Shown: piece after piece, positions 6,594 through 10,265 of the stretch | Position numbering within the stretch: the stretch's first letter is position 1 | Layout: the number at the start of each line of letters is the position of its first letter | Virus record (IMG/VR): IMGVR_UViG_3300042691_023541 | Coordinates: 1 to 25,418 of that record | From: a virus | Strand: one strand, 5' to 3' | DNA: 25,418 nt | Notes under the pieces: model-generated | What the model saw: only the letters and a program-made list of their open reading frames with translations | Databases searched by the model: none | What the model was told of the DNA's origin: nothing | Translations under genes and position numbers: made by a program

Positions 6594-8278
6594 GACAAGC
6601 CGCACAGCGATATGGTCGCCAGCCGTTGCGGGCGGTGTCTCAACAGCGGGTGTCTATCGGACGCGCCGTTCCCGCTCCTGTTGGTGGATGGGATGCACAG
6701 TCCCCGTTGGCCAATATGCCTGCGGAAAACGCGGTCATCCTCGACAACTTCATTCCCCGCGCTGGTTACGTCGAACTGCGTAAAGGTTATGTTCCTTGGC
6801 AAGAGGGCTTGCCCCTGCCGACTGAATCAATCCTGGTCTGGCGCGGCGGCACGGCATCGGCTGCGGATGACATTTTTGCAGCGTCGGGCGGCTCGCTCTT
6901 TGACGTGAGCAACCAGAATGATGCGCCGGTCGAGGTGTTCTCTGGCGCTGGTAACGCTCGCTGGCAATGGATCAACTTCGCCAATGACGCGGGAACGTTT
7001 CTAATCGCAGCGAATGGTTCGGTTGATCCGATTTATTACGACGGGTCCGCGTTTGCCTCGACGGTCATCACAGGGTCAGCCGGGGTGATTACCCTCGACC
7101 CTCGCACCCTGATCGACGTGATGGATCATAAGGGGCGGCTGTTCTTTGTGCAGGAAAACAGCCTGCGGACGTGGTTTCTTGAGCCGTTTGCTATTCAGGG
7201 AGAGGCTAACCTTCTCGACCTTGGCCCGATTTTTGACAAGGGCGGGTCTATCCTCTGTCAAGCCACTTGGACGCTGGACGGTGGTTCCGGTGCCGATGAT
7301 CTAGCGGTCTGGGTGACGACGCAGGGTCAGGTGGCCGTGTATCAGGGCCTTGACCCTTCGGATGCGGCTAACTGGGCGCTGGTCGGTGTCTATGACCTCG
7401 GCCTGCCGCTCTCGCGCCGGTCGCTTATCAAGTATGGTTCCGACCTAGTGGTGCTGACGACTGACGGCGTGGTGCCTCTTTCGCAGGCCCTGAAGCTGGA
7501 CCGCGCTCAAGAGAACCTTGTGGCGCTGACGCAGAAAATCCAGAACGCTTTTCAACAGGCGACGAACCGTTATCGCGGCAACTTTGGATGGGAAGGGGCG
7601 CTGTATCCAAGGGGAACGCTGGCGATTTTCAACGTCCCGACTGCCGATCTAACCCGGTCGGAGCAATACGTGCAGAACGTCCAGACCGGCGCATGGTGTC
7701 GGTTTACGGGCATCAATGCGTTCTGCTGGGCCGTGGCTAACGATCAAATGTATTTTGGCGCGGCTGATTCGGTCTGTCTCTGGGACACCGGATATGCGGA
7801 CAATACAACCGGGATTGTCGGGGACATTAAGACGGCATTCAACTATTTCGGATCGCGCGGCAGCCTGAAAAAGTTTGAGATGCTTCAGCCGGTTCTGCGT
7901 ATCGGTGCGGACCTGGCACCGGCAGTCGAGATTGTCACGGACTTCAAAGAGAAAATCCCTACGGCTGTCCCGACCACTATCACGACCACAGGCGGGCGAT
8001 GGGATACGGGCTTATGGGACGTGGCCAAATGGGCTAACAGCGTGGAGACGCGCGATAGCTGGACCAGCGTAACCGGCATCGGTTATTGCGGTGCGGTGCG
8101 GATGCGTGTTGCGCCTAACGCTACGCTCTACATTGACCTTGGCGTCGATGACGATACGTCGCTTGCCTATGAGGCTGACGGCATTATTGCGATGCAAGCG
8201 GCCCGAAACACAAACGCGCCTTGTGAGATTATTGCGTTCAATCTGAAATACGAAAACCAAACGGGCGGGCAGCTTTGA
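6590..8278 (+). CDS. Tail nozzle / packaged-DNA stabilisation protein
   Basis: 562 residues from ATG 6590, chosen because it overlaps the preceding stop as ATGA; ATG 6578 has its AGGAG only 1 nt away, too close. The protein is beta-rich with repeated WxxF/WVTT/TWFLEPF-type blades, consistent with the beta-propeller nozzle proteins of short-tailed phages (P22 gp10-like, SU10 nozzle). Conserved-looking features include the N-terminal GGWDAQSPLANMP, which matches the opening of this family, and NFIPRAGYVELRKGY. The nozzle closes the tail and plugs the packaged DNA. No membrane segment. Confidence 0.7.
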   Translation: MRQAAQRYGRQPLRAVSQQRVSIGRAVPAPVGGWDAQSPLANMPAENAVILDNFIPRAGYVELRKGYVPWQEGLPLPTESILVWRGGTASAADDIFAASGGSLFDVSNQNDAPVEVFSGAGNARWQWINFANDAGTFLIAANGSVDPIYYDGSAFASTVITGSAGVITLDPRTLIDVMDHKGRLFFVQENSLRTWFLEPFAIQGEANLLDLGPIFDKGGSILCQATWTLDGGSGADDLAVWVTTQGQVAVYQGLDPSDAANWALVGVYDLGLPLSRRSLIKYGSDLVVLTTDGVVPLSQALKLDRAQENLVALTQKIQNAFQQATNRYRGNFGWEGALYPRGTLAIFNVPTADLTRSEQYVQNVQTGAWCRFTGINAFCWAVANDQMYFGAADSVCLWDTGYADNTTGIVGDIKTAFNYFGSRGSLKKFEMLQPVLRIGADLAPAVEIVTDFKEKIPTAVPTTITTTGGRWDTGLWDVAKWANSVETRDSWTSVTGIGYCGAVRMRVAPNATLYIDLGVDDDTSLAYEADGIIAMQAARNTNAPCEIIAFNLKYENQTGGQL

Positions 8279-8736
8279 GGCTAGTTTCCGGCCCGTTCTC
8301 GCCTTTGGTCGCTCAATGGGTAGCGGATCAAATCGGGCATGGTTTGGATTGGGGGCCATGCGAGGCTATCGGGGTGGTTGATAAGCATGACAATCTCATT
8401 GGTGGTGTCGTGTTTAATCAATATCAGCCTCAATACCGCAACATCGAGGTCAGTTTTGCCTCTGCACGGGCGAACTGGTTGACGCCTCGGCTTGTCAGCG
8501 GTATCTTGCGTTATCCGTTCTATCAGCTTGGAGCGGCGAGAATCACCAGCCTGACGCCAAAGAAGTTGCGTCCCGCTCGCCAGTTTCTCTCAAAGTTTGG
8601 TTTCAAACATGAGGGGACTATCCGGCGTGGTTATGGTGATGACGATTGCATCATCTCCGGTCTCCTCGAAAGCGAGTGGCGTTGCCACCGTTTCAACAAG
8701 GAGCGCGTGAGTGATGGGGACCGTATCGCTTCTTGA
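8275..8736 (+). CDS. GNAT family N-acetyltransferase
   Basis: 153 residues from TTG 8275, whose TTGA overlaps the nozzle stop. GNAT fold features: beta strands around LIGGVVFNQY (41-50), IEVSFAS (57-63), and the acetyl-CoA region from VSGILRYPFYQLGAARITSL with the downstream ARQFLSKFGFKHEGTIRRG, typical of RimJ/RimL-like enzymes. The substrate (protein N-terminus, or small molecule) is unknown; phage GNATs of this type commonly sit among tail genes. The last 17 residues, after ESEWR (codon ends 8682), do not look like a GNAT tail and overlap the converging homing endonuclease by 44 nt, so the C-terminus was probably rewritten by that insertion. Confidence 0.85.
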   Translation: MRLVSGPFSPLVAQWVADQIGHGLDWGPCEAIGVVDKHDNLIGGVVFNQYQPQYRNIEVSFASARANWLTPRLVSGILRYPFYQLGAARITSLTPKKLRPARQFLSKFGFKHEGTIRRGYGDDDCIISGLLESEWRCHRFNKERVSDGDRIAS

Positions 8737-9194
8737 TTGCCCAAATGGACGATTTGTCCACGCCGTAACGTTTGGCCAGAACGACGTTGCTTTCGGTGCT
8801 ATTCGCAATAGCTTGTCGCTCGCTAAACGGTATCTTTTGAACGCGTCGGCCCTTCTGAACCGAATCGTTAATGTTGTCCGCGTTGGTTCCAAGGAACAGG
8901 TGGTCGGGGTTGACGCATCGCGGTGTGTCGCAAGTGTGGCAGCACTGAATGCCCGGCGGGATCGGCCCGTGAACGATTTCGTAAGAGAAGCGGTGCGCGA
9001 GAACGCGGGCGGCTGGGCCGTCCGGCCTAAACATTCCGTATCCCTTTTTTCCGTTGCCGCCAGCCGTCCAAAGCCAGCAAGAGTCGGTCTTCTCGACTTT
9101 GGCAAAAAATCGCACAAGCGGGTCTTTTCGAGTTCTTTTTCGCATGGCGGCATCATGAGCAACCGTCCCGCTCAAGTCAACGGGAGAGTTTCCC
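8683..9194. mobile_element. Inferred intron-less homing endonuclease insertion
   Basis: This about 510-nt interval holds only the minus-strand HNH gene in an otherwise continuous + strand operon with overlapping stops and starts. The left limit is inferred from where the GNAT protein stops looking native (after codon ending 8682). The right limit is inferred from where the next virion protein begins to look native (ATT 9195). No terminal repeats were found. Exact borders need comparison with an uninterrupted relative. Confidence 0.45.
8693..9145 (-). CDS. HNH homing endonuclease (free-standing)
   Basis: 150 residues from ATG at 9145 (MRKRTRKDPLVRFFAKVEK...), chosen because homologues begin just before a RFxxKVxKxxxCWLW motif; longer readings from 9196 or 9298 add an unlikely tail. 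Typical phage HNH features are present: CWLW, KKGYGMF, AHRFSYE, then CCHTCDTPRCVNPDHLFLGT with the His and Asn of the HNH site, and NADNINDSVQKGR. The C-terminus (residues about 115-140, VLAKRYGVDKSSIWAIKKR) is a helix-turn-helix for target recognition. It makes a cut in phages lacking the element, so it spreads by repair. It is opposite in strand to the operon and converges on the GNAT gene. Confidence 0.88.
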   Translation of the reverse strand: MRKRTRKDPLVRFFAKVEKTDSCWLWTAGGNGKKGYGMFRPDGPAARVLAHRFSYEIVHGPIPPGIQCCHTCDTPRCVNPDHLFLGTNADNINDSVQKGRRVQKIPFSERQAIANSTESNVVLAKRYGVDKSSIWAIKKRYGPHHSRAPC

Positions 9195-9197
9195 ATT
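9182..9197 (+). promoter_or_regulatory. Shine-Dalgarno plus probable ATT start
   Basis: GGGAGAG at 9182-9188 is followed by six bases and ATT at 9195. The frame is closed upstream by TGA at 9156-9158 and contains no ATG, GTG or TTG until 9291. Residues read from ATT (ISKPRPPAAPDPVQLANAQ) match the usual N-terminus of this phage protein family, where the first residue would be Met. GGGA and TCCC around the site could form a small hairpin that hides the ribosome site. Confidence 0.55.
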
Positions 9198-10265
9198 TCT
9201 AAGCCCCGGCCCCCCGCAGCTCCTGATCCCGTCCAGCTTGCCAACGCGCAATCGTCTGCAAACACCGCGACGGCGCGTGAACAGCAAAGATTGAACATGG
9301 TGAATACGACCGGCCCGCAAGGCTCGGTTCGTTACATCGCTGACCCGACTGCGCCCGGTGGATACCGTCAGGAAACGCAACTCAGCCAAGGCGAACAGCA
9401 GAACTACGACCGCTCTACGTCGGTCTATGGTGGTGCGCTGGATACGGCGGGCCAGCAGATTGGCCGTGTGAACCAAGCTCTTGGACAGGGCCTCAACACC
9501 GAAGGCTTGCCGGAGCTTCAAGGCTTCAACGCGCCAGACTTTGACCGTCAGCGGTATGAGGATGCGGTTTATGCGAGCCAGACCCGTCGCCTCGACCCGC
9601 AGTTTCAGCGGCTTGAAAGGTCGCAGGATGCACGTCTTGCCGCGCAGGGCCTTGGAGCGAATAGCGAGGCTACGCGAAACCTTCGATCTGATTTTGCTAG
9701 AGGTCGAAATGACGCTTACGAGGGAGCCGCTAACCAAGCCATCCAAGCCGGTGGTGCTGAACAATCTCGCGCTATTCAGAACGCTATTGCCGGTGGTACA
9801 TTCGGTAACCAGGCGCGGACGCAGGGCCTTCAAGAGCGGGCTTACGTCCAGAACCAGCCGCTTCAACAGTTGCAAGCCCTGCTAGGCACGGGCCAAGTCG
9901 GTATGCCGCAGGGTATCCAATACAGCCCGACCGGCGTTGGCCAGACGGACGTGCTAGGCGCTCAAGGGTTGGCGCTTAACCAGCAAAACGCGAACTATCA
10001 GGCTCGTGCGCAACAGCAGCAGGCACTCATGAGCGGCCTGTTTCAGCTTGGCGGCGCTGCTATCGGCGCGTCTGACCGTCGCCTGAAACGCGACATTAAG
10101 CGCGTTGGCACGATGGCTAACGGCCTGCCGGTCTATGAATACCGCTACGTCTGGGGCCGCAAGCGTCATGTCGGCGTGATGGCTCAGGACGTTCTTAAGG
10201 CTGGCATTGACGCGGTGGTCCGTCACTGGACGGGCTTCCTCATGGTCGATTACGGGAAGCTCTGA
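9195..10265 (+). CDS. Virion protein with C-terminal peptidase S74-type chaperone module
   Basis: 356 residues if started at ATT 9195; the conservative starts are TTG 9291 (324 residues) or ATG 9297. The N-terminus (KPRPPAAPDPVQLANAQ) and Gln/Ala-rich helical body look like podovirus internal or tail proteins. The C-terminus carries SDRRLKRDI, HVGVMAQDVL and VDYGKL, the intramolecular-chaperone (peptidase S74) signature. The predicted catalytic Ser-Lys pair is five residues apart, as in endosialidase. This module is short, only about 64 residues after the serine. It lies just ahead of the ejection proteins and overlaps the next start (TGATG). Function in assembly is inferred. Confidence 0.7.
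   Translation: MSKPRPPAAPDPVQLANAQSSANTATAREQQRLNMVNTTGPQGSVRYIADPTAPGGYRQETQLSQGEQQNYDRSTSVYGGALDTAGQQIGRVNQALGQGLNTEGLPELQGFNAPDFDRQRYEDAVYASQTRRLDPQFQRLERSQDARLAAQGLGANSEATRNLRSDFARGRNDAYEGAANQAIQAGGAEQSRAIQNAIAGGTFGNQARTQGLQERAYVQNQPLQQLQALLGTGQVGMPQGIQYSPTGVGQTDVLGAQGLALNQQNANYQARAQQQQALMSGLFQLGGAAIGASDRRLKRDIKRVGTMANGLPVYEYRYVWGRKRHVGVMAQDVLKAGIDAVVRHWTGFLMVDYGKL

Follow-up and report, generated by a model that had tools for sequence, protein, structure and literature searches.

A probable ATT start codon in a phage virion structural gene, read as a copy of an old ATC/ATT start allele beside an inserted HNH endonuclease gene

The analysed stretch of DNA (the window, 25,418 nucleotides) is the IMG/VR record IMGVR_UViG_3300042691_023541, positions 1 to 25,418. 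Its + strand contains a GNAT acetyltransferase gene (8275..8736; phrog_4470, 2.7e-29), which has a TTG start and is truncated by an insert, and a virion structural gene of 356 codons (9195..10265; phrog_6121, 2.9e-65) with a C-terminal Peptidase_S74 domain (PF13884, 3.3e-9). The two are separated by a minus-strand HNH endonuclease gene. Its longest ORF, 9298..8693, matches PF13392 HNH_3 (E 5.9e-9) and phrog_1872 (2.9e-32), and, as the homology starts near MRKRTRKD, the gene proper should occupy about 8693..9145; the conserved Cys and His residues of the domain can be read in the sequence (CCHTCDTPRCVNPDHL). The preliminary description of an HNH gene interrupting a tightly overlapped + strand operon was thus borne out, the GNAT and virion genes of HNH-free relatives overlapping by about 40 nt or more. 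On the left side of the insert lies a leftover virion-gene start signal of the ordinary type, severed from its gene (8698..8713, + strand: AAGGAG 8698-8703, in-frame TGA 8708-8710, GTG 8711-8713) and identical to the start regions of the relatives L021, L036 and L003. On the right side, a Shine-Dalgarno sequence GGGAGAG (9182..9188, + strand; duplex energy -7.7 in the window and all ATC/ATT relatives described below) precedes the predicted ATT start codon (9195..9197), the end of GGAG being 8 nt away from it. The virion frame here reads TGA (9156-9158) gca acc gtc ccg ctc aag tca acg gga gag ttt ccc ATT tct aag and is intact to 10265. When it is followed from this TGA, the first conventional candidates are TTG 9291 and then ATG 9297, in agreement with the earlier statement that no ATG, GTG or TTG precedes 9291.

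A scan of IMG/VR for loci encoding relatives of the virion protein yielded 70 loci, and the codon homologous to ATT 9195 (codon 1) was read in close relatives only. It is GTG in 32 and ATG in 11 of them, the ordinary relatives. Most of these have an in-frame stop immediately 5' of codon 1 (e.g., L021, AAGGAGCGCG TGA GTG AGC AAG), which fixes the position of the start; this TGA is a stop in the virion frame, and GNAT reads on beyond it. The ordinary start thus falls at exactly the codon where the preliminary description had placed a native-looking N-terminus behind GGGAGAG, and the relatives retain the protein segment encoded by 9195-9290, whose absence had been named there as a sign against such a start. 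In 17 further relatives, HNH-free and each from a different dataset, codon 1 is ATC (13) or ATT (4), with the pattern CGGGAGCGTTCCCC ATC TCT AAG. The window has ATT in similar surroundings, as does L057, a separate IMG/VR contig that is identical to the window over 590 nt and encodes a GNAT protein with 95.8% amino acid identity. These 19 loci (17 HNH-free relatives, the window and its twin L057) are referred to as the ATH group. A hidden ATG-to-ATT change, which the preliminary description had kept as an alternative, is very unlikely given the twin contig and the 17 contigs from 17 datasets.

The start segment of ordinary relatives, GGAG-CGCGTGA-GTG-AGC, corresponds in HNH-free members of the ATH group to GGAG-CGTTCCCC-ATC-TCT, which is one nucleotide longer; the in-frame stop and GTG are absent from it, and the Shine-Dalgarno sequence and spacing are retained. 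In these phages the ordinary segment would have been swapped for the longer version. Two scans by DNA pattern for further ATH members found none beyond the 17 and L057, the remaining matches being unrelated, and no relatives were confirmed among genome contigs. A conventional start candidate is present in all distant relatives (L122-L188). The virion genes of L043-L048 have fewer codons (298-300 in those with a visible end) and match that of the window only to about residue 292; their S74 end seems to be exchanged or missing.

The start codon of the ATH group was weighed against the proposal that its members use differing conventional starts, namely GTG at codon -14 wherever no stop or insert intervenes, with TTG 33 or Met 35 serving the others, the window among them. 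Each phage singly does have at least one conventional candidate (codon -14, 33, 35, 77 or 92), never a common one; the ATH codon, in contrast, is common to 19/19. The GTG at codon -14, the sole upstream candidate in the group, is forced by Glu-Trp codons of GNAT. An in-frame stop bars it from the ATH codon in three relatives, L013 (TAA, 7 codons before ATC), L032 (TAG, 9) and L042 (TGA, 11); in the window and L057 the insert does so. The L013 and L032 stops leave the GNAT protein sequence unchanged, which looks like selection on GNAT rather than on an extended virion protein. Downstream, Met 35 is replaced by Leu (CTC or CTT) in L004, L023 and L043-L048, leaving codon 77 or 92 as the next candidate. 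GGGAG lies 8 nt 5' of the ATH codon in 19/19 (energy -7.7) and is the best site in all of them, while the energy medians before codons -14 and 35 are -1.7 and -2.4, i.e., no good Shine-Dalgarno sequence. Moreover, the protein sequence of codons 2-32 is also conserved where the proposal would have translation begin at 35. Within the ATH group, pN/pS is 0.16 in codons 2-32 versus 0.19-0.23 in codons 35-100, so that the former are under purifying selection no less than the gene body, with the reservation that codons 2-14 overlap the GNAT frame and that recombination with GTG alleles may account for part of the signal in codons 16-32. As differing conventional starts would also need two unrelated sites 49 codons apart among close relatives, this proposal is unlikely, and AUU/AUC, not AUG/GUG, is very probably where the virion gene starts in the window and in no fewer than 17 related phages.

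Two other explanations would dispense with an AUU/AUC start altogether, and both appear highly improbable. Ribosomes could shift into the virion frame with no start needed, from GNAT in HNH-free phages, or from ATG 9155 or the frame antisense to HNH in the window, as overlapping frames do cross the site. However, no common mechanism would serve both cases, since HNH-free phages require a -1 shift out of GNAT and the window a shift out of another frame; the sole C-run is broken in L004 (TTCACC), and no standard slippery heptamer lies in the right frame. Alternatively, the HNH insertion may have broken the gene by separating its ordinary start, leaving the window with little or no translation of the virion protein. 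The ordinary signal (AAGGAG...GTG 8711) indeed persists to the left of the insert, but a complete ATH start follows the insert, whose 3' flank, CGGGAGAGTTTCCCATTTCTAAG, agrees with HNH-free ATH phages in their start region (CGGGAGCGTTCCCCATTTCTAAG); the ORF is intact, and the same arrangement is found in L057. The idea of an untouched insertion scar loses its ground for the same reasons. Two further candidates were rejected: an intron with a spliced-in start, since positions 8200-9800 gave no Rfam intron family and one chance match only, the HNH gene thus appearing free-standing, and a phage tRNA that would explain the start, as none was found in the window or in 10 ATH contigs.

Most relatives have no HNH gene at the GNAT/virion-gene site. 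Those found there belong to three lineages with 41-48% identity between them: L016/L024/L033 together with L027, L041, and the window with L057. They are always on the minus strand, and L063 has an HNH remnant at this site. The junction is a homing hot spot for separate mobile HNH genes. In L016/L024/L033, L027 and L041 codon 1 is GTG or ATG; since these carriers have conventional starts and the 17 HNH-free relatives have ATC/ATT, the HNH gene is not the cause of the ATH start, nor does the latter depend on it. The earlier view that insertion of the endonuclease had left the ATT start therefore has to be abandoned. The window itself looks like a recombinant. To the left of the insert it matches the ordinary type up to and including the Shine-Dalgarno sequence and GTG (8698-8713), with a GNAT gene that clusters with GTG-type alleles in the GNAT tree; to the right it matches the ATH type. 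The insert would thus join an ordinary-type GNAT end to an ATH-type start region. Homing endonucleases cause co-conversion of flanks (PMC2988022), and mixed flanks are consistent with recombination at the HNH site of the kind that co-conversion predicts, the order of events being our reconstruction.

The ATC/ATT allele is one substitution apart from ATG. At the same time, GNAT alleles linked to it show differences at as many as 41% of fourfold sites, which indicates a long-lasting allele and not a recent mutation. The virion-gene tree requires the ATH label to change 10 times, and 7 or more of these changes fall on well-supported branches, pointing to recombination that passes the start region from one gene body to another; as an example, L020 (ATT) shares 95% identity with GTG relatives over codons 16-110. 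Taken from sequence comparison, our preferred reading, with a probability of about 0.82, is that the ATT start at 9195 represents, in the window, an old ATC/ATT start allele, spread by recombination independently of the HNH gene and coexisting with the ordinary GTG and ATG alleles. Translation of the virion gene would begin at this codon, presumably as fMet-Ser-Lys-Pro, by means of the Shine-Dalgarno sequence GGGAG 8 nt upstream. AUU and AUC are weak starts in Escherichia coli, which counts against this reading.

In all HNH-bearing members (among them the window, L016, L024, L033, L027 and L041) the + frame in register with and antisense to the HNH gene is open throughout the insert, and its stop lies between -4 and +7 nt relative to the virion start. 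In the window this open frame (8711..9202, + strand) starts at the leftover ordinary Shine-Dalgarno sequence and GTG, and ends at TAA 9200-9202, 5 nt past the A of ATT 9195. Among HNH genes elsewhere with similar GC the same register is open in 6/28, and codon usage predicts an open register at 0.15-0.24 each. For three independent HNH lineages this gives a chance of about 1 in 100, a lead only, as the pattern was spotted post hoc. Conceivable roles of such a frame are protection of the mRNA from Rho and delivery of ribosomes to the ATT codon.

Lower or regulated translation from an ATT start, as suggested in the preliminary description, is plausible. A stronger version, in which AUC/AUU is a selected dosage switch, seems rather doubtful: host IF3 would limit initiation and keep the protein sparse, or made mainly late when IF3 is scarce, and in HNH-bearing phages ribosomes arriving via the antisense frame would in addition re-initiate at the ATT beside TAA 9200-9202. 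For other non-canonical starts, increases of 3- to 15-fold in an infC fidelity mutant are reported (PMC5472188).

Documented AUU/AUC initiation concerns few bacterial genes, infC foremost, and no phage gene initiated in this way, virion or other, turned up in the literature searched, a limited selection; the 'rare start codon' of EspM4VN refers to Val/Leu (GTG/TTG-type) starts and was rejected as a precedent. Here GTG, ATG, ATC and ATT alleles occur at one homologous start codon within one phage family. As all four precede nearly the same protein behind a similar Shine-Dalgarno sequence, they form a natural series for measuring the effect of a start that may be IF3-sensitive on a virion protein. 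Gene finders restricted to ATG, GTG and TTG misplace such starts, in this case 14 codons upstream or 32-34 or more codons downstream. The family also corrects the easy assumption that an endonuclease insertion lay behind the unusual start.

The closest known counterpart is infC, encoding IF3, which starts with AUU in E. coli and ATC in Streptomyces and is sensitive to IF3 (PMC5472188). The virion gene likewise has AUU/AUC where its orthologs have AUG/GUG, behind a good Shine-Dalgarno sequence, as judged here from the nucleotide sequence. However, infC encodes a translation factor and not a phage virion protein, and in the phage family GTG and ATG alleles coexist at the homologous codon in close relatives. 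Another counterpart is sigR of Streptomyces, whose GTC start is repressed by IF3 (PMC5472188). Both genes combine a non-canonical start with annotation misplaced to a nearby conventional codon; sigR differs in the codon and in being a regulated stress gene with experimental proof, while the phage start is supported by comparison. As to the insert, the free-standing HNH genes of phage T4 (mob) similarly lie between conserved genes and are missing from most close relatives, and the mixed-type flanks of the window are as co-conversion would give (PMC2988022); in contrast, the HNH gene of the window is on the minus strand inside a + strand operon, and its activity is putative.
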